From Halopseudomonas xiamenensis (GTDB taxonomy: Bacteria; Pseudomonadota; Gammaproteobacteria; Pseudomonadales; Pseudomonadaceae), in assembly GCF_014219065.1 (NCBI RefSeq), contig NZ_JACLGO010000027.1, positions 1-60,744 of the forward strand: a stretch of 60,744 bases of DNA, given 5' to 3'. The translations under genes and the position numbers were made by a program. Under the pieces are notes generated by a model, which saw nothing but the letters and a program-made list of their open reading frames with translations, was not told where the DNA came from and searched no databases. This document shows, piece by piece, positions 33,726-42,425 of the stretch. Each line of letters starts with the position of its first letter. The first letter of the stretch is position 1.

Positions 33726-34244
33726 ATGATTTTCTTCCTTTCTTTACTCGTTCTCACTGGACTCGCCTGGCTGGCTGGCCGTATGGGCGTGACCTCTCTG
33801 CGTGAAGGGCGCGCGTGCATGAGAGTGGCGCTAACAGTGGCATTGGTGTTTTTTGGCGCAGACCATCTGCTCACCCCGCAGCGCTACCTGCCCATGATTG
33901 AAAGCTGGATGCCCTGGGCAAGTACCGTTGTGGCGCTGACCGGCATCTGCGAAATCGCCGGCGGTTTGGGGTTGTTGGTGCCCAGGCTACGGCGACTGGC
34001 GGGTGCGCTGCTGGCGGTGTACTTCATTGCGGTGTTCCCGGCCAATGTGCATAACGCCTTGCAGGGTTTGAGCGTGGACGGCTTGCCTGTCAGCGCGTGG
34101 TACTACTGGGTACGGCTTGGATTTCAGCCATTGGCAGTCTGGTGGGCGTTATTCAGCGCAGGTCTAGTGCGCAGGCCCTTCACTGGCGGGTCGGATATCA
34201 GCTTGCGCCCGGCACGCATGCATGGGAGACACGATAATGGTTAA
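33726..34244 (+). CDS. DoxX-like membrane protein
   Basis: A 172-residue membrane protein with about four to five helices and the motif FFGADHLLTPQRYLPMIESW followed by GICEIAGGLGLLVP, characteristic of the DoxX/DoxD-like superfamily. The ATG at 33726 has GGAGG five bases upstream; an upstream in-frame start at 33693 lies in the operator repeats and has no site. It overlaps the carotenoid oxygenase gene by 8 bp. Function unknown; DoxX-like proteins are linked to redox or lipid processes. Confidence 0.8.
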   Translation: MIFFLSLLVLTGLAWLAGRMGVTSLREGRACMRVALTVALVFFGADHLLTPQRYLPMIESWMPWASTVVALTGICEIAGGLGLLVPRLRRLAGALLAVYFIAVFPANVHNALQGLSVDGLPVSAWYYWVRLGFQPLAVWWALFSAGLVRRPFTGGSDISLRPARMHGRHDNG

Positions 34245-35649
34245 TAACGGAAGTGCGCTTGGATTCACAACTCTGGGTCAGGAGTTGACGGAAGTCGAAC
34301 TGCATCAGCGCGGCCAGGTGCCTGAGTGGCTTGAGGGTGACCTGTTGCGTACCGGGCCGGCACAGTTTGAGGTAGGCAAAGCGTCTTATCAGCACTGGTT
34401 CGACGGTCTTGCGATGCTGTACCGGTTCCATTTTCAGCAAGGGCGTGTGGTCTACTCCAATCGCTATTTGCAAAGCGATGCCTACTTGAAGGCTAAAGCC
34501 GCCGGAGCACCCAGCAGTCCTGAGTTCGCCACCAACCCGCTGCCGACTCTGCTACAGAGATTGCGGCTCGTCGCGCGAGCGGGTTCAGGCAACAACGCCA
34601 ACGTCAACACCAGCAGGATCGGCACCCACACTGTGGCATTAACGGAGACACCCCAGCCAGTGGCCTTCGATCCGGCCAGCCTGGCCACCCTGGACAGCCG
34701 CACGCTGCTGCCATCGCTACCGGGGCAGGTCACCACGGCCCATCCGCACTTTGATGCGCGTCGCCAGTGCCAGTACAACTACCTGTTGGAGTTCGGGCGG
34801 GTAAGCAAGTACCGCCTCTACCGCATTGATGCCGGCACAACACAAGCGCAACTGGTGGCCACGCTCGACACGCAGCGCCCGGCCTACATGCACTCATTCG
34901 GTATGAGTGAGCGTTATCTGGTGCTGACCGAGTTCCCGCTGGTCACCAACCCCTTGCGCTTCCTGCTCGGGAATCGGCCGTTTATCCAAAATTACCGCTG
35001 GGAGCCAGAGCGGGGCACCCTGTTCCATGTGATCGACAAGGACACTGGTCAGATCATGAAAACCGCCCGGGCAGAACCGTTCTTTGCATTTCACCACGTC
35101 AATGCCTTCGAACGGGACGGGAAGCTCTGCGTAGATATCATCGCCTTTCCCGATCCTTCGGTGATCGACGAGCTATATCTGGAGCACCTCAGATCCGAGG
35201 CACCCACGAAGGCAGCGGGAAAGCTAACCCGCTTCACCGTTGACCTGGATGGCGATGACGCGGTGGTATCACAAACACTGGCGGACGCCGCACTGGAGTT
35301 GCCCCGCTTTGATTACCGTCGCCGTGCAGGACAACCTTACCGCTACGTGTACGCAGCGGGGACAAGCCCCAAAGCGGCATTCATGGATACGTTGATTCGG
35401 ATTGACCTCGAGACAGGGAAGGAGACAGCCTGGCATGAGGCGAGCTGCTACCCAGGCGAGCCGGTATTCGTACCCAGGCCCGAAGCCCAGGGCGAAGACG
35501 ACGGCGTCATTCTGTCCGTGGTGCTGGACGCCAAGGTCGGTCGATCATTTCTTATCGTTCTGGACGCGGCAAATTGGAGTGAGCAGGCACGGCTCGAGGT
35601 GCCACATCCGGTGCCGTTCGGTTTCCATGGCAACTTCTTTAAGGGCTAA
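34237..35649 (+). CDS. Carotenoid oxygenase-family protein
   Basis: A 470-residue member of the carotenoid cleavage dioxygenase/RPE65/lignostilbene dioxygenase superfamily. Its beta-propeller holds a non-haem iron with four histidines; candidates are in TTAHPHFDA, AYMHSFGMSE, FAFHHVNAF and the C-terminal VPFGFHGNFF. The N-terminal EWLEGDLLRTGPAQFEVG and HWFDGLAMLYRF are typical. The ATG at 34237 has GGGAG seven bases upstream. It overlaps the DoxX-like gene and should be under the TetR regulator. No carotenoid or retinal synthesis gene is in the window, so stilbene-type or apocarotenoid substrates are equally possible. Confidence 0.88.
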   Translation: MVNNGSALGFTTLGQELTEVELHQRGQVPEWLEGDLLRTGPAQFEVGKASYQHWFDGLAMLYRFHFQQGRVVYSNRYLQSDAYLKAKAAGAPSSPEFATNPLPTLLQRLRLVARAGSGNNANVNTSRIGTHTVALTETPQPVAFDPASLATLDSRTLLPSLPGQVTTAHPHFDARRQCQYNYLLEFGRVSKYRLYRIDAGTTQAQLVATLDTQRPAYMHSFGMSERYLVLTEFPLVTNPLRFLLGNRPFIQNYRWEPERGTLFHVIDKDTGQIMKTARAEPFFAFHHVNAFERDGKLCVDIIAFPDPSVIDELYLEHLRSEAPTKAAGKLTRFTVDLDGDDAVVSQTLADAALELPRFDYRRRAGQPYRYVYAAGTSPKAAFMDTLIRIDLETGKETAWHEASCYPGEPVFVPRPEAQGEDDGVILSVVLDAKVGRSFLIVLDAANWSEQARLEVPHPVPFGFHGNFFKG

Positions 35650-35713: not shown

Positions 35714-36835
35714 CTATTGCAGCGGCCGCAGCCGGGCGACCAGCTCTCCCTGGCGGTTGATGCCCATCTTTTCGTAGATGCTCTTGATCTGGCTGCGAAT
35801 GGTTGCCACCGACACTTCTCGTGCCTCGGCGATGGTTTCGGGCTTCTGCCCATTGGCCAGTTGCATGGCGATCTGTGCTTCGGCATCGGTCAGCAGGAAG
35901 GCCGCCTTCAGCGCGGCAATCAGCTGCTGGTCGTCCCGCTTGGCGCCACGCGCCAGTACCAGTGCCCTGGGGGTGAAGCTGAAGGTGAAGGGTCTGGCCG
36001 GCAGCGAAATCACATCAACGATGATGGTGTCGGGTGTCTTGTCGCCCCGCAGCGAACGAATGAACAGGCTCTTCATCAAGGGTGGGCCTGGGCGCCGCAG
36101 ACCGGCAATCGCCGCTCGGATGGTTTGGTCCAGCGCCAGGCTGTCCTGGGGCAGTTCGGCTGCCAGGCAGTTGAGTTGCAGCTTGAGAAAGCGTCCGCTG
36201 CTGAGCAGGTCCTCGGCCTGGGGTGTCATGGCCATTACCTGTCCCACATGGTCACAGGCGAATGCCGCCAGAGACATGGCCTCCATGGCGCCGGTAAGCA
36301 GGTTGGCGATATTGCCTTCGAGCAGCATCTGGGTACGCACCGCGCTGCGCACATGGGGGGCCAGGGAGGCGAAAACCTGCTTCTGCTCGTTGGTGATATG
36401 CCCGTCCCTGCTGCTGCGTGATACCGCCAGCCCGATCAGGGAGTCCGTTCCAGCGATCAAGGTGCTCAAGCAGCAGTAGGGAACGTCCCAGTGTCTGCTC
36501 CACTTGTAATGCTCGTTGGTTTTGATCTGCTCTGGCGTAATGAAATCCGCCTCGGCTATTACTCGCCCCGTCCCGGCCGCCATGCCAGCGCGCACCCGTG
36601 GATTCAGTTCGGGACTGGAGAAGCCCAGTTCATCGAACTCGGTGGCTATCTCGGGATTTATGGTCCAGGTGTTGAAAGGTGTAGTGATACTGGTTCCGAT
36701 GCCGATCAACTGGCCACCTTCCGAACCTGTGGCCTGGGCGAACAGCTCAAGGGCCTGATACCAGCCATCCCCATTCAATGCTGCGTCGGTAAAGCTATCG
36801 GCAACCCGAACCCACTGATCATCCGCGTCGAGCAT
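35714..36835 (-). CDS. LuxR-type (FixJ/NarL HTH) transcriptional regulator
   Basis: A 373-residue regulator. The C-terminal LuxR-type helix-turn-helix (about 308-370) contains LTDAEAQIAMQLANGQKPETI and VSVATIRSQIKSIYEKMGI. The N-terminal 200 residues look like a GAF/PAS-type sensor without a recognisable autoinducer or receiver domain. It is divergent from the selenoprotein operon across a 211-bp gap, so it is a candidate regulator of that operon. Its signal is unknown. Confidence 0.85.
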   Translation of the reverse strand: MLDADDQWVRVADSFTDAALNGDGWYQALELFAQATGSEGGQLIGIGTSITTPFNTWTINPEIATEFDELGFSSPELNPRVRAGMAAGTGRVIAEADFITPEQIKTNEHYKWSRHWDVPYCCLSTLIAGTDSLIGLAVSRSSRDGHITNEQKQVFASLAPHVRSAVRTQMLLEGNIANLLTGAMEAMSLAAFACDHVGQVMAMTPQAEDLLSSGRFLKLQLNCLAAELPQDSLALDQTIRAAIAGLRRPGPPLMKSLFIRSLRGDKTPDTIIVDVISLPARPFTFSFTPRALVLARGAKRDDQQLIAALKAAFLLTDAEAQIAMQLANGQKPETIAEAREVSVATIRSQIKSIYEKMGINRQGELVARLRPLQ

Positions 36836-37046: not shown

Positions 37047-38486
37047 ATGAAAACTGCCTTGCCAGATGGCCTGATCGTTGTGGCCAAAGCTGATTGCCCC
37101 ACCTGCCGGTTGGCCGAGCCACTGCTCGCTGAGCTGAACGCGCAAGCCGGGCCTCTGACGGTCTATGTGCAGGACTCCACGGAGTATGCTGCCGACCTGC
37201 CTGGCACCTTGTACGACAAGACTCTGGAACACTCCTACCGCCTGGGTATCGAATTCGTACCGACGCTGATCCGTGTCGAGAATGGCGTCGAGGTGCAGCG
37301 CACCTACGGCTGGCACAAGGAGGATTGGCGGCAGATATCCGGGCTGGCTGCGTTGGGTGAGGACTTGCCGGTGATGCGCCCCGGCTGCGGATCGAAGACG
37401 CTGGAGCCGGGGATTGCCGAGGAACTGGAGCTGGCATTCGGGGATATTCGGCTGCAGTCCCGCGAGATCGATTTTTCCGCCGTCGATGATCCCTTCGAGG
37501 CCTGCTTCGAACGTGGCTGGAGCGACGGCTTGCCGGTGGTGCCACCGACGCCGGTGCGGGTGCTGCGCATGCTCAAGGGTACCCGGCGCAAGCCGGATGA
37601 GGTGGTTGGCCTGATGCCGCCGGACCTGGTGCCCTGCACGGTGGAGAAGGTGGCGATCAATGCGGTGATGGCAGGCTGCAAACCTGAATATATGCCGGTG
37701 CTGCTGGCGGCGCTGGAGGCGGCCCTGACCGACGAGTTCGGCCTGCACGGGCTGATCTGCACCACCATGTTCGGCAGCCCGCTGATTATCGTCAACGGCC
37801 CGGCAGCCAGGGCGGTCGGCATGAACTCGGGCGTCAACGCGTTGGGGCAGGGTAATCGCGCCAATGCCACCATTGGCCGGGCTTTGCAGCTGATCATTCG
37901 CAATGTCGGCGGTGGCCGCCCCGGCGAGATCGATCGTGCCACGCTGGGTAACCCCGGCAAATACAGTTTCTGCTTTGCCGAAGCCGAGGACAGCGAATGG
38001 CTGCCACTGGCGCAGGAGCGGGGTATAGAAGCTGGGCGTTCGGCGGTGACGCTGTTTCCCGGCGAGGGGGTACAGGGCATCATCGACCAGAAATCCCGCG
38101 ATCCCGAGTCCCTGGCACGCTCCTTCGCCCTGTCACTGCGCGCCGTCGATCATGCCAAGCTGGCCATGGCGGGGGATGCGGTGCTGGTGGTATCGCCCGA
38201 GCATGCGCGGGTCTTTATCGACGCAGGCTGGTCCAAGCAGCGGCTGCGTGAAGAACTGGACCGGCTGCTGCTGGCGCCCGGCAAGGAGTTGGTCGCCGGT
38301 GCCGGGGGTATTACCGAGGGAATTCCCGAACGTTTCAAGGACATGCAGGTACCCAAGTTTCGTCCTGGTGGCCTGCTGATCGTCCGGGCTGGCGGTACCG
38401 CCGGTCTGTTTTCTGCCATCATCGCCGGCTGGGCTGCGTCTGGCCCGGTCGGCTCGTCTGCGGTAACACGTGAGGTGAACACATGA
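37047..38486 (+). CDS. Thioredoxin-like two-domain protein coupled to the UGSC selenoprotein
   Basis: A 479-residue protein, no signal peptide seen. Residues 1-105 form a thioredoxin-like domain with ADCPTCRLAEPLL (Cys17-x-x-Cys20) and a cis-proline-like FVPTLIRV. From about residue 150 a second domain of unknown function carries SDGLPVVPPTPVRVLRML, VEKVAINAVMAGCKPEYMPV, NSGVNALGQGNRANATIGRA and a C-terminal glycine-rich stretch. An AAAAGGG site precedes the ATG. Its stop overlaps the start of the UGSC gene (ATGA), so the two are translated together. The natural inference is that this protein reduces, or forms a complex with, the selenoprotein. I cannot name a reaction. Confidence 0.8.
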   Translation: MKTALPDGLIVVAKADCPTCRLAEPLLAELNAQAGPLTVYVQDSTEYAADLPGTLYDKTLEHSYRLGIEFVPTLIRVENGVEVQRTYGWHKEDWRQISGLAALGEDLPVMRPGCGSKTLEPGIAEELELAFGDIRLQSREIDFSAVDDPFEACFERGWSDGLPVVPPTPVRVLRMLKGTRRKPDEVVGLMPPDLVPCTVEKVAINAVMAGCKPEYMPVLLAALEAALTDEFGLHGLICTTMFGSPLIIVNGPAARAVGMNSGVNALGQGNRANATIGRALQLIIRNVGGGRPGEIDRATLGNPGKYSFCFAEAEDSEWLPLAQERGIEAGRSAVTLFPGEGVQGIIDQKSRDPESLARSFALSLRAVDHAKLAMAGDAVLVVSPEHARVFIDAGWSKQRLREELDRLLLAPGKELVAGAGGITEGIPERFKDMQVPKFRPGGLLIVRAGGTAGLFSAIIAGWAASGPVGSSAVTREVNT

Positions 38487-39022
38487 ACGAGAACAGGGTA
38501 CTGGACCCGACGGCGGAGCAAGCGCCGGCCCAGCGGGCGCGTCTGCCCCGGCCGACGTCGATAGAGGGCAAGGTGGTCGGCCTGCTGGATATATCCAAGC
38601 CGCGTGGCGATGTCTTCCTCGACCGTATCGAGGAACAGCTGGCTGCCATGGGTATCCAGGTCAAGCGTTACGCCAAGCCGACCTTCACCCGGATCGCTCC
38701 GACCGAACTCAAGCAGCGGATGGCCGCCGAGGTCGATCTGCTGGTGGAAGGGCTGGCCGACTGAGGGTCTTGCACGTCGTGCTGTATGCATGACATAGCA
38801 GACCTGGAGTCGCGTCAGGTTCCGGGTGTTGGAGTTGCCTCCAGCGAATTCATCGAGGCTGCGGCGTTGCAGTCGCGGGCGCTGGGTTTCGACCCGGCAA
38901 TGGTCTTCGTGCCGCATCCGATTCAGGATCGTACCGATGAGGAAATGCGTGCCCTGGCCGATGCCGCCCTGCCGGATATCCTGCGCTTGCTCTGCGCAGA
39001 GGAGGGTGATGCCGCCGAGTGA
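38483..39022 (+). CDS. UGSC-motif selenoprotein (in-frame TGA read as selenocysteine)
   Basis: Read conventionally, the frame from 38483 stops at TGA 38762-38764, giving 93 residues ending EGLAD. The same frame continues without a break to a stop at 39020-39022. With TGA as selenocysteine the product has 179 residues and the motif U94-G-S-C97-T-S-C100-C101. After the TGA the protein still looks real (LESRQVPGVGVASSEFIEAA, MVFVPHPIQDRT). A SECIS-like hairpin begins one base after the TGA, and selA, selB and selC follow. A Sec/Cys pair suggests a redox enzyme, probably fed by the coupled thioredoxin-like protein. The motif agrees with a UGSC family of (seleno)proteins known from surveys; its reaction is unknown. 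Confidence 0.92.
38765..38804 (+). promoter_or_regulatory. Bacterial SECIS element
   Basis: Directly after the TGA the RNA can form a two-part hairpin: lower stem 38766-38770 with 38800-38804, a 2-bp extension (38772-38773 with 38798-38799), and a 7-bp upper stem 38776-38782 with 38788-38794 closing a UGUAU loop. The loop starts 18 nt after the UGA and has G as its second base. These features agree with described bacterial SECIS rules (short apical loop, G in the first two loop positions, 16-37 nt spacing). Confidence 0.8.
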
Positions 39023-39071: not shown

Positions 39072-40457
39072 ATGAAACAGCCGACAAACCCTCTGTATCC
39101 GCCTTCGGTTGACCACATGCTGGGTTGGCCGCTGATTCAGGCACTGGTGGCCAGCCATGGCCGGACACTGGTGCTCGGTTGTCTGCGCGAGGCCCTGGCA
39201 TTGTGGCGTGACGGTACGGCAAATGATCCGGCAAGTTTCATGCAGGCAGTGCAGCAACTGGTCGAGAAGACCCTCGTGCCGTCCATGCGGCCGCTGTACA
39301 ACCTCACCGGCACCGTGCTGCATACCAACCTGGGTCGCGCACCGCTGCCGCCGGAAGCGATCGAGGCAATGACCGCGGTAGCGCTGGGCGCGAGCAATCT
39401 CGAGTTCGATCTGCAGACCGGGCTGCGTGGCGACCGTGATGAGCATGTCGAGCAATGGATCTGCCGCCTGACCGGTGCCGAGGCGGCCACCGTGGTCAAC
39501 AACAACGCCGCAGCGGTATTGCTGGTGCTCAATGCACTGGCGCAGCGCCGCGAAGTGGTGGTATCCCGGGGTGAGCTGATCGAGATTGGTGGCTCCTTCC
39601 GCCTGCCCGACATCATGGCCCGCGCCGGGTGCAAACTGCGTGAGGTGGGGGCGACCAACCGTACCCACGCCCAGGATTATGTCCAGGCCATTGGTCCGCG
39701 CACTGCACTGCTGCTCAAAGCCCACACCAGCAATTTCAGTATCCAGGGTTTCACCAAGGCGCTGAGCGAGGCGCAGTTGGCGGATATCGCTCGTGAACAC
39801 CAGTTGCCGCTGGTGGTGGATCTGGGCAGTGGTTCGCTGATCGACATGCAGGCGCTCGGTCTGCCCGCCGAGCCGGTGGTGGGCCGGGTACTGGAACAGG
39901 GCGTGGATATCGTCACCTTCAGCGGCGACAAGCTGCTTGGCGGTCCCCAGGCCGGCATCATTGCCGGCCGGGCGGATCTGGTGGCGCGCATACGCAAGAG
40001 CCCGCTCAAGCGGGCGCTGCGCTGCGACAAGATGACCCTGGCCGCCCTGGAGGCGGTATTGCGCCTGTATGCCGACCCCGACACCCTCGTGCAGAAGGTT
40101 CCGACCCTGCGCCTGCTCACGCGCAGCGCCGAGGATATCCGCCGTACCGCTGAGGCTTTGCTACCGGCGCTGGCGGCATGGGCTGGTAGCGCTGTCCAGG
40201 TGGATGTGCATGAGGTCAGCAGCCAGATCGGCTCCGGTTCGCTACCGCTGGAGCTGTTGCCCAGCGCCGCATTGCGACTGCGCAGCAACAGCCCCAACAA
40301 GCGTGAGCGCAGCCGCCATCTGCGTGAGCTTGCCGAGCGTTTGCGTAGCCTGCCGCAGCCGGTGATAGGGCGCATTACCGATGACAGCCTGCTGCTCGAT
40401 TGTCGCTGCGTGGAGCAGCCTGCGGCGCTGCGGGCGCAATGGGAGGCTGGGGTGTGA
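39072..40457 (+). CDS. selA: L-seryl-tRNA(Sec) selenium transferase
   Basis: SelA converts seryl-tRNA(Sec) to selenocysteyl-tRNA(Sec) using selenophosphate. The 461-residue PLP enzyme shows NLTGTVLHTNLGRAPLP (about 76-92) and the cofactor lysine in SGDKLLGGPQAG (Lys287). Length matches bacterial SelA. It starts 49 bp after the selenoprotein stop with AAAGG ahead of the ATG, so it is probably in the same transcript. Its end overlaps selB. The selenium donor gene selD is not in the window. Confidence 0.96.
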   Translation: MKQPTNPLYPPSVDHMLGWPLIQALVASHGRTLVLGCLREALALWRDGTANDPASFMQAVQQLVEKTLVPSMRPLYNLTGTVLHTNLGRAPLPPEAIEAMTAVALGASNLEFDLQTGLRGDRDEHVEQWICRLTGAEAATVVNNNAAAVLLVLNALAQRREVVVSRGELIEIGGSFRLPDIMARAGCKLREVGATNRTHAQDYVQAIGPRTALLLKAHTSNFSIQGFTKALSEAQLADIAREHQLPLVVDLGSGSLIDMQALGLPAEPVVGRVLEQGVDIVTFSGDKLLGGPQAGIIAGRADLVARIRKSPLKRALRCDKMTLAALEAVLRLYADPDTLVQKVPTLRLLTRSAEDIRRTAEALLPALAAWAGSAVQVDVHEVSSQIGSGSLPLELLPSAALRLRSNSPNKRERSRHLRELAERLRSLPQPVIGRITDDSLLLDCRCVEQPAALRAQWEAGV

Positions 40458-42316
40458 TCATCGCCACTGCCGGGCATGTGGATCATGGCAAGACCTCGTT
40501 GGTGCGGGCGTTGACCGGCATCGACACTGATCAGCAGGCCGAGGAAAAGCGCCGTGGCCTGACGATCGAACTCGGCTTCGCCTGGGTCTTCACTGACGAG
40601 GGGCAGGCGCTGGGCTTCGTCGACGTACCGGGGCATGAGCGCTTCATGGCCACTATGCTGGCCGGCGTCGCCGCCGTGGACGCCGCGTTGCTGGTGGCGG
40701 CGGCGGATGACGGGGTGATGCCCCAGACCCGCGAGCACCTGAGTGTACTGCGGCTGCTCGGGGTGGAGCGGTTGGTCATTGTCCTCAGTCGTTGTGATCT
40801 GGCGGAGCCGGCGAGGGTGGCGTTGGTACGGGATGAACTGCATGAGTTACTGGCACCGCAGGGCTGGGATGAGCCGCCGGTATTCTGCGTATCGGCTGTC
40901 ACTGGCGAAGGCATACAGCTGCTCCAGGAGTACCTGCTCGGGCTGGCCCGGGATCACCGTCTGCGTACCCCTGGCGGCCATGCGCGGCTGATGGTCGATC
41001 GCCGCTTCAGCGTGGCGGGAGCTGGCTGCGTGGTAACCGGCACCCTGGTCAGCGGCAGCCTGCAGGTGGGGCAGCGCTTGCTGGCCGACGGGCTTGAGCT
41101 ACGCGTGCGCAGCCTGCAGATAGCGGGTCGGGAAGCGCCACAGGTGGCAGTTGGGCAACGCTGTGCCGTGAATCTGGTGGGCGTTACCGAGGAACATCCG
41201 CGCCGGGGGGATTGGCTGACGGCAGTGGCGTTCGACAGCTCCGATAGGCTGGATGTGGAGCTGGTGCAACTGGAGGGCAGCCGCTGGCATCGCGGCCTGC
41301 TGCAGTTGCACCTGGGTACGGCGGTGCATCCGGTGCGGGTAGTGGTGCTGGAGGAGGGCCGACCGGCGCTGGCGCAGTTGATGCTGCAGCGCCCGGTGCA
41401 GGCGGTATGGGGGGAGCGCTTCATCATCCGCGACCCGGCGGTCAATACCACGCTTGGCGGTGGACGGGTGCTTGACCCGCAGGGGCTGCGGCGCGGGCGT
41501 GGCAAGGCGCAGCGCCTGGCGCTGCTACGGGACTGGCAGCAGGCGGCGACTGCACGGCAGGCGTTGATGGCGGCCATGCGCTGGCAACCGGTGGAGTTGG
41601 GTGGCTTCGCCCAGCGCTTCAACCTGACCGAAGCCGAATTGCAGGCACTGCTCGACACCATCAATGATTGCGAAGTCCTGTGCGGGCAACGTCAGGCCTG
41701 GGCTCTGCTGCCAGAGCGGCTGGAGGCGGCCTGGGCCAGCGTGTTTGCCTGGCTTGGCGCCTGGCATGCAGCGCACCCCGAGCAGTTGGGGCCGGGCGAG
41801 GGCGAGCTGAAGCTGGCCGCTGGTCTGCAATTGCCGTCGGAGCTGAGCAGCTGTCTGCTGAGCCGATGGTTGCGCGATGGTCGGCTGCAGCGCCAGGTCT
41901 GGGCCTGGCACCTGCCGGGGCACCGACAGCAGTTGCTGGAGGAAGACCAGATGCTGCTCGCCAGGGTCAGCGAACTGTTGCTGGCTGGCGGGTTGCGTCC
42001 GCCGATTATCGGTGAGCTAAGCCAGGCGCTGGAGATGGAACTGGAGCAGCTCCAGGCGTTTCTTCAGCGCATGCAGCGTGCGGGTGAGCTGATCGCGGTA
42101 GCACCGAACCGCTATTATCTGCCGTCCCAGATCGATGGGCTGGTGGCGGTGGCGCAACGCTTGGCGGCGGGCTCCTGCTCTGGTAGTTTCACTGCCGCCG
42201 AATACCGGGATGCTTCCGGTATCGGACGCAACCTGACCATCCAGGTGCTGCACTATCTCGACCGGGCGGGCATCACCCGCTTCGTGCGGGAACAACGTTT
42301 CCTTGCCGCTGGCTGA
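40454..42316 (+). CDS. selB: Selenocysteine-specific elongation factor
   Basis: SelB brings Sec-tRNA to the ribosome at a UGA followed by a SECIS. The 620-residue protein begins directly with the GTPase motif ATAGHVDHGKTSL (P-loop at residues 7-14), then DVPGHERFM and an EF-Tu-like core. The C-terminal half has the winged-helix repeats that bind SECIS RNA. The GTG at 40454 overlaps the selA stop (GTGA) and gives the usual SelB N-terminus; an upstream ATG in the frame lies within selA. tRNA-Sec begins 14 bp after the stop. Confidence 0.96.
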   Translation: MIIATAGHVDHGKTSLVRALTGIDTDQQAEEKRRGLTIELGFAWVFTDEGQALGFVDVPGHERFMATMLAGVAAVDAALLVAAADDGVMPQTREHLSVLRLLGVERLVIVLSRCDLAEPARVALVRDELHELLAPQGWDEPPVFCVSAVTGEGIQLLQEYLLGLARDHRLRTPGGHARLMVDRRFSVAGAGCVVTGTLVSGSLQVGQRLLADGLELRVRSLQIAGREAPQVAVGQRCAVNLVGVTEEHPRRGDWLTAVAFDSSDRLDVELVQLEGSRWHRGLLQLHLGTAVHPVRVVVLEEGRPALAQLMLQRPVQAVWGERFIIRDPAVNTTLGGGRVLDPQGLRRGRGKAQRLALLRDWQQAATARQALMAAMRWQPVELGGFAQRFNLTEAELQALLDTINDCEVLCGQRQAWALLPERLEAAWASVFAWLGAWHAAHPEQLGPGEGELKLAAGLQLPSELSSCLLSRWLRDGRLQRQVWAWHLPGHRQQLLEEDQMLLARVSELLLAGGLRPPIIGELSQALEMELEQLQAFLQRMQRAGELIAVAPNRYYLPSQIDGLVAVAQRLAAGSCSGSFTAAEYRDASGIGRNLTIQVLHYLDRAGITRFVREQRFLAAG

Positions 42317-42330
42317 CGCCGGCGACCAGA

Positions 42331-42425
42331 GGAAGGACATCGTCCCCGGTGGGGCGCCCGGACTTCAACTCCGGTGAGATGCGCAACGCGTGTCTGGTGG
42401 GTTCGACTCCCATGTCCTTCCGCCA
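42331..42425 (+). tRNA. selC: tRNA-Sec (TCA)
   Basis: A 95-nt tRNA with an 8-bp acceptor stem (GGAAGGAC with GTCCTTCC), discriminator G and encoded CCA. The anticodon loop CTTCAAC carries TCA (42365-42367), and a long variable arm follows. All are hallmarks of bacterial tRNA-Sec. It lies 14 bp after selB, on the same strand. Confidence 0.97.

Follow-up and report, generated by a model that had tools for sequence, protein, structure and literature searches.

Here, a locus encoding a predicted selenoprotein of the UGSC family and a second, constantly adjoining protein is described from a window of 60,744 nucleotides (the whole stretch of DNA that was analysed; Halopseudomonas xiamenensis, contig NZ_JACLGO010000027.1, forward strand). 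The second protein, hereafter the partner, begins with roughly 100 thioredoxin-like residues that include the motif CPTC, and its remainder, the C-terminal domain (C-domain), matches no Pfam or NCBIfam family. The partner stop codon overlaps the UGSC start codon (ATGA), and genes of the selenocysteine (Sec) machinery follow. The UGSC gene had been proposed in a first-pass annotation of this DNA; the gene at 37047-38486, absent from that annotation, is the more informative part of the locus. The features of the window that bear on the analysis are the following.

37047..38486, + strand: partner gene, 479 aa; thioredoxin-like domain and family-less C-domain
about 37047-37376, + strand: N-terminal thioredoxin-like domain of the partner, motif C17-P-T-C20
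about 37422-38483, + strand: C-domain of the partner, without a Pfam or NCBIfam name
38483..39022, + strand: UGSC (seleno)protein gene, 179 aa with codon 94 as Sec; motif U94-G-S-C97-T-S-C100-C101
38762..38764, + strand: in-frame TGA, predicted Sec codon 94
38776..38794, + strand: predicted upper hairpin of a bacterial Sec insertion sequence (SECIS); 7 bp stem, loop UGUAU, apical GU
39072..40457, + strand: selA, L-seryl-tRNA(Sec) selenium transferase
about 40454..42316, + strand: selB, Sec-specific elongation factor; GTG start inferred from the start of the profile match, overlapping the selA stop
42331..42425, + strand: tRNA-Sec, anticodon TCA (Rfam RF01852, 78.5 bits)
35714-36835, minus strand: LuxR-type regulator, upstream of the pair
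34222-35649: RPE65/carotenoid-oxygenase gene, upstream of the pair

The UGSC frame opens with an ATG at 38483, reaches the TGA as codon 94, and continues for 85 codons to a stop at 39020-39022. When read through, the protein matches the Pfam family UGSC (PF24696; E 2.5e-41, 142.1 bits against a cut-off of 25, residues 5-171) and the NCBIfam equivalog NF041046 (148.5 bits, cut-off 125); the family match spans the TGA, and the segment after it is therefore coding. Across 42 aligned UGSC sequences, with TGA read as C, the tetrad C/U-G-S-C is invariant, and in the window the TGA codon is followed by GSC; among the Sec/Cys positions of the motif, 94 and 97 are invariant while 100 and 101 vary. A UGSC gene was found in 20 of 38 relatives, with exactly one in-frame TGA in each. 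Order-wide, matches over the cut-off occurred in 25 of 293 genomes, and 34 of the 35 matches contain one TGA and the remaining one (G076) a Cys; two of these order-wide matches are also in the set of 38 relatives. In a sample of the phylum, six matches exceeded the cut-off, of which five contain one TGA and the sixth (G662) lacks any. Six pairwise comparisons of the first 75 codons after the TGA gave nonsynonymous rates (dN) of 0.036-0.139 and synonymous rates (dS) of 0.865-1.596. Because dN is far below dS, the post-TGA stretch is translated, and judged by these rates its codons are under purifying selection. By its sequence, the Halopseudomonas gene is a new member of the published UGSC family, and the TGA at 38762 is predicted to encode Sec. 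Thus, the coordinates and the family match confirm the in-frame TGA with 85 codons beyond it that the first-pass annotation had described, and its assignment to the UGSC selenoproteins is borne out by scores over both curated cut-offs, the recurrent TGA, and the purifying selection. The check that it had named, a search for homologues spanning the TGA, recovered such homologues with either Sec or Cys at the site.

Homologues were read with TGA only, and a UGSC gene read with TAG would escape detection for that reason; one study reports selenoproteins of Geodermatophilaceae that carry the UGSC motif with Sec encoded by TAG (PMC5330540). Weak matches to PF24696 below the cut-off (L044-L047) were dropped as spurious. 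Three UGSC proteins from short metagenome contigs (P0002, P0003, and P0005) have Trp or Arg at the Sec site, for which sequencing error, recoding, or loss are all possible.

The first-pass annotation had also placed SelA, SelB, tRNA-Sec, and a SECIS close to the gene, and all four were recovered: no more than 3.7 kb separates the TGA from the ends of selA, selB, and tRNA-Sec, and a conserved SECIS-like hairpin occupies positions +14 to +32 relative to the T of the UGA. Of 31 distinct Sec genes, 29 form the five inner pairs of this hairpin, as do 8 of 37 distinct Cys genes at equivalent positions (Fisher p 9e-10, a value that ignores kinship, since the genes are related and the Cys genes belong to other clades). 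The motif filter used in this count missed L048, which forms the pairs, and the Cys gene L040, and one spurious second L067 match was removed from the Cys set. An alignment of 30 Sec genes has pairing in 86.7% of its 210 cells, compared with 8.6-52.4% when the positions are slid; shuffling still gave 84.1% pairing, the columns being almost invariable. Of the two outer pairs, one is broken in 13 and the other in 11 of the 30 genes. Substitutions within the hairpin include C-G to G-C in L048 and U-A to G-U in L041 and L042, and for the window gene alone the folding z-scores are -2.57 (51 nt), -1.29 (41 nt), and -1.23 (42 nt).

The gene for the remaining component, selD, is elsewhere in the same genome (442.7 bits, cut-off 125). 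SelB was above cut-off in 22 of the 38 relatives, and UGSC was present in 20 of these 22 and in none of the other 16 (p 7e-9). In 18 of the 20, a single contig carries both UGSC and selB, separated by less than 1.7 kb; the two genes fall on separate contigs in G010 and G027. A search of the Halopseudomonas genome for the alpha subunit of Sec-dependent formate dehydrogenase yielded nothing over the cut-off (best fragment 46 bits). This result and the co-occurrence of SelB and UGSC suggest that UGSC is likely the main Sec client in this genome, other selenoprotein families being outside the survey. Three relatives (G015, G020, and G023) have two over-cut-off selB genes each, one located 94-97 bp after UGSC and the other elsewhere in the genome.

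The partner C-domain adjoins UGSC in all 64 distinct loci that were examined, with a largest gap of 591 bp and both genes on the same strand in 63 of them (they are convergent in L133); no UGSC without a partner was found among the 64. These loci, chosen for UGSC only, comprise 38 named Cys loci (L049-L086), 26 further stretches (L121-L146, some of which come from one genome), and the window, reduced from 65 to 64 by dropping L125, which is the same locus as L067 (100% over 5509 bases). Among the shorter loci (L001-L043 and L048), the partner is present in all but L020 and L028, where the contig ends on the expected side, and in L048, which occupies the same place as L126, a Sec-containing UGSC is fused to the partner C-domain. 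In 349 Pseudomonadota genomes sampled regardless of either gene, the same five encode both families and 344 encode neither (1/C(349,5)=2.4e-11). Since the same second gene adjoins UGSC in 64 of 64 loci, a joint function of the two proteins is likely. A search of the protein database gave at least 8000 relatives of the partner; among the matches listed, the best named one is from 'Pseudomonas sp. MYb185' (94% identity), followed by Halopseudomonas entries. Its C-domain includes a nearly invariant cysteine, C211, in the sequence MAGCKPEY and a conserved GNRANATIGRA stretch. A total of 24 plasmid records match the C-domain, and UGSC adjoins it in eight of the ten that were fetched; no match to the C-domain was obtained in phage records. 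One locus (L121, 7077-9636) has UGSC with two tandem matches to the C-domain.

An AlphaFold2 model of UGSC built from 42 sequences (pLDDT 92.1) has the element order E H E H E H E H E H, with U94 located between a strand at 86-92 and a helix at 95-110. This predicted order of strands and helices is not that of thioredoxin, and the fold is predicted to be flavodoxin/Rossmann-like. Foldseek and VIA-align searches with the model returned flavodoxins, SsuE, and receiver domains, a common flavodoxin/Rossmann/receiver-like arrangement that allows no functional call, and no thioredoxin appeared among the best 50 listed rows from either program. The UGSC sequence gave nothing convincing against solved structures, and with the partner sequence only thioredoxins stood out. 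In the structural search with the partner, fumarate-hydratase rows were disregarded (TM about 0.2, rmsd >11 A). UGSC is like the thioredoxin-fold selenoproteins in its short Sec-x-x-Cys redox motif but differs from them in its five predicted alternating strand-helix units.

Several features of the loci point to a thioredoxin-type supply of electrons. The thioredoxin domain is fused to the partner in 36 of the 64 loci; where it is not (28 loci), 12 partners carry a C-terminal Cys pair (CSSGTC, CIDC, and CVDC types) and two loci (L083 and L086) have a separate trxA directly upstream. A trxB-like gene is within the fetched stretch at 12 loci, including four from Methylobacterium and four from Alcaligenaceae, and the four of these proteins that were scanned all matched Pyr_redox_2. 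Annotated trxB genes occur in three of the ten plasmid loci. Gene orders include partner-UGSC-trxB in Roseovarius, trxB-TTT-SDR-partner-UGSC in Variovorax, and trxB-trxA-partner-UGSC in Arthrobacter, whose trxA and trxB were both scanned. The simplest reading is an electron path from NADPH through TrxB and a thioredoxin-type dithiol to UGSC. Also in Arthrobacter (L149, 8015-8830), a UGSC fused to a NifU-like C-terminal domain follows trxB-trxA and the gene for a ComA (phosphosulfolactate synthase-like) protein.

The genes that recur near the pair encode CaiB-type CoA-transferases, FCD or LysR regulators, TTT binding proteins, and acyl-CoA dehydrogenases, along with an SDF dicarboxylate symporter, BKACE (five Bacteroidota loci), RraA-like and AcnX proteins, and TRAP transporters. 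Representatives of trxB, CaiB, BKACE, AcnX, RraA, and SDF were checked against Pfam, and the others were named from record annotation or by inspection of the sequence; antisense open reading frames (ORFs) that recurred in the neighbourhood clustering were ignored, and SDR and ABC clusters were too common to weigh. The neighbouring transporters and CoA-ester enzymes fit carboxylic-acid catabolism as the likely setting, and the pair probably works in the breakdown of small organic acids.

Taken together, UGSC and its partner may form a two-subunit selenol/thiol reductase fed by thioredoxin-type dithiols, a reading to which we give about an even chance of being correct. In the proposed scheme, the two proteins would bind each other, and the partner C-domain (C211 in MAGCKPEY, GNRANATIGRA) would hold the substrate. 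The selenolate of U94, placed just before a helix in the predicted flavodoxin-like fold, would attack the substrate, and C97 (or C100/C101) would resolve the resulting selenium intermediate by forming a selenenyl-sulphide. Reduction of this bond would fall to the fused thioredoxin domain (CPTC), which a TrxB-type NADPH reductase would recharge. As a working analogy, this scheme is modelled on the one proposed for D-proline reductase, in which PrdA holds the substrate, the Sec of PrdB attacks the alpha-carbon, the C-N bond is cleaved, and a Cys resolves the selenoether (PMC3091704). Glycine reductase is described as being supplied by NADPH, thioredoxin reductase, and thioredoxin (PMC3091704, PMC13188914), and the UxxCxxC motif reported for GrdB (PMC13188914) is present in the window as U94-GS-C97-TS-C100. 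A broader proposal, which we regard as doubtful, is that the pair represents a widespread new class of selenol/thiol reductases, in aerobes too, that uses the strategy of proline reductase, together with a partner whose fold is not recognised, to cleave a C-N or other C-X bond in small carboxylic acids, and that the Sec machinery of Halopseudomonas lies beside it and is kept mainly for it.

The likeness to D-proline and glycine reductases (PrdA/PrdB, GrdB/GrdE) consists of the UxxCxxC Sec motif, a separate putative substrate subunit, and a weak in-register profile alignment. A trimmed UGSC profile (91 sequences) was aligned by hhalign to 124 GrdB-like Cys proteins with E 4.4e-4 and a score of 29.1, in an alignment that keeps both the Sec/Cys pair and the HP/FP motif in register; scores were at most 19.7 in 60 column shuffles and were 17.0 and 16.4 for reversed profiles. 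Kinship between UGSC and GrdB is suggestive only, however, because one control family scored 29.2 and the untrimmed comparisons were weaker. The differences are that UGSC lacks a GRDB match and the partner lacks a recognised likeness to PrdA/GrdE: none of 26 partner C-domains gave a Pfam match to PrdA/GrdE-like (pyruvoyl-forming) families up to E 10, and the MTTB matches of two of these 26 members (best E 0.058) were taken as chance. PF07355 had no match in the Halopseudomonas genome, and the same search likewise had none in any control genome; a search of the PDB for a relative of the GrdB-like proteins found none. UGSC hosts include Methylobacterium and Bradyrhizobium, which are aerobic genera and in this respect differ from the hosts of D-proline and glycine reductases. 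By analogy, the best reading is that the UGSC pair works like these reductases and is not a member of their family.

Several observations weigh against the two-subunit reductase and its proposed model. The hhalign probability was 33.5% at best, and 14% and 9.9% with untrimmed alignments; one of 24 control families equalled the raw score (29.2 over 26 columns, E 0.0019); and Pfam GRDB (PF07355) matched 0 of 42 UGSC members up to E 10. A structural search with the partner matched the thioredoxin domain alone and gave no fold for the C-domain. Fourteen of the 64 loci have neither a fused thioredoxin domain nor trxA nor a Cys-pair tail (one of these, L063, is truncated where its contig ends, and another has trxB), and 52 lack a trxB-like gene in the fetched stretch, a count that has no background rate for trxB. 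No transporter or CoA enzyme was found among the genes scanned beside the pair in the window. Finally, in the other two fetched plasmids (Vibrio europaeus and Sporomusa termitida), a UGSC-like domain without the Cys motif is fused in front of the C-domain, indicating that the pair can exist without a redox site.

Against the two-subunit reductase must be set three other explanations. UGSC could be a general thiol/selenol peroxidase or disulphide reductase that counters oxidative stress and is reduced by the thioredoxin-like partner; this would agree with the thioredoxin domain and trxB near some loci and with surveys that place UGSC among Trx/Prx/Grx-like selenoproteins (PMC2398784, PMC13188914). 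Such a role seems unlikely, since the genes that recur nearby encode transporters, CoA-ester enzymes, and regulators, a peroxidase would have no evident use for the large conserved C-domain, and the predicted fold of UGSC is not thioredoxin-like. The Cys/Sec cluster might instead bind a metal or Fe-S centre, making the pair a metal-handling or cofactor enzyme, as the NifU fusion could be taken to hint. That fusion was seen once, however, only 94 and 97 of the four Sec/Cys positions are invariant, the linkage to trxA/trxB indicates dithiols, and the fold match may be merely a common arrangement; we consider this explanation quite improbable.

The third explanation takes the TGA as a true stop, leaving a pseudogene or a 93-residue protein only. 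The first-pass annotation had expected conventional annotation to produce two wrong fragments, and a 93-residue ORF (38483-38764) is indeed what the standard reading yields in the mechanical ORF list. A stop of this kind is nevertheless hardly credible given the single in-frame TGA in all 20 relatives with the gene and in 34 of 35 order-wide matches, the excess of dS over dN after the TGA, the homologues with Cys at the site, and a selA that starts 49 bp downstream of the UGSC gene.

By title, the listed papers that mention both UGSC and selenoproteins are bioinformatic surveys or reviews, and the first-pass annotation was in agreement with the published passages in describing UGSC as known from selenoproteome surveys with its reaction undescribed. 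In the accessible passages of PMC2398784, PMC13188914, PMC9312934, PMC5330540, PMC7539508, PMC3091704, and PMC12176620, neither a partner nor a reaction is named for UGSC, most subscription journals and all supplements being outside the search. The window gene itself has no essential difference from the family, with a predicted Sec in the UGSC motif and a SECIS-like hairpin. Where the account differs is in fold and partner: the relevant passages of PMC2398784 give a likely thioredoxin-like fold and no named partner, whereas here the model is flavodoxin/Rossmann-like and a partner adjoins UGSC in all loci examined. The same survey, of Global Ocean Sampling data, describes a UGSC/Unknown_1 fusion, in which UGSC is joined to a conserved domain of unknown function (PMC2398784); L048 is likewise fused, with the partner C-domain, a likeness drawn from the description only. 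The UGSC family is thus known, and what is new is a testable system around it: with a constantly adjoining partner that has no name, a likely supply of electrons from thioredoxin, and a fold prediction that departs from the published one, the function of UGSC becomes a matter for biochemical tests with defined components.

Among the plasmid loci, the UGSC genes of Paracoccus ferrooxidans pFER4 (L151) and Acidovorax sp. T1 p2-T1 (L155) have an in-frame TGA; in pFER4, a selB is annotated 3.3 kb past the partner gene, and p2-T1, which carries IS1071, has been typed as IncP and conjugative. Two loci (L153, 6275-7960; L154, 6236-7960) encode a fused UGSC-like domain with MGTS replacing the Cys motif, beside aconitase X/DUF126 genes, and such MGTS fusions are possibly a non-redox branch. 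Three haloarchaeal plasmids (L150, L152, and L156) carry a Cys-type UGSC adjoining the partner.
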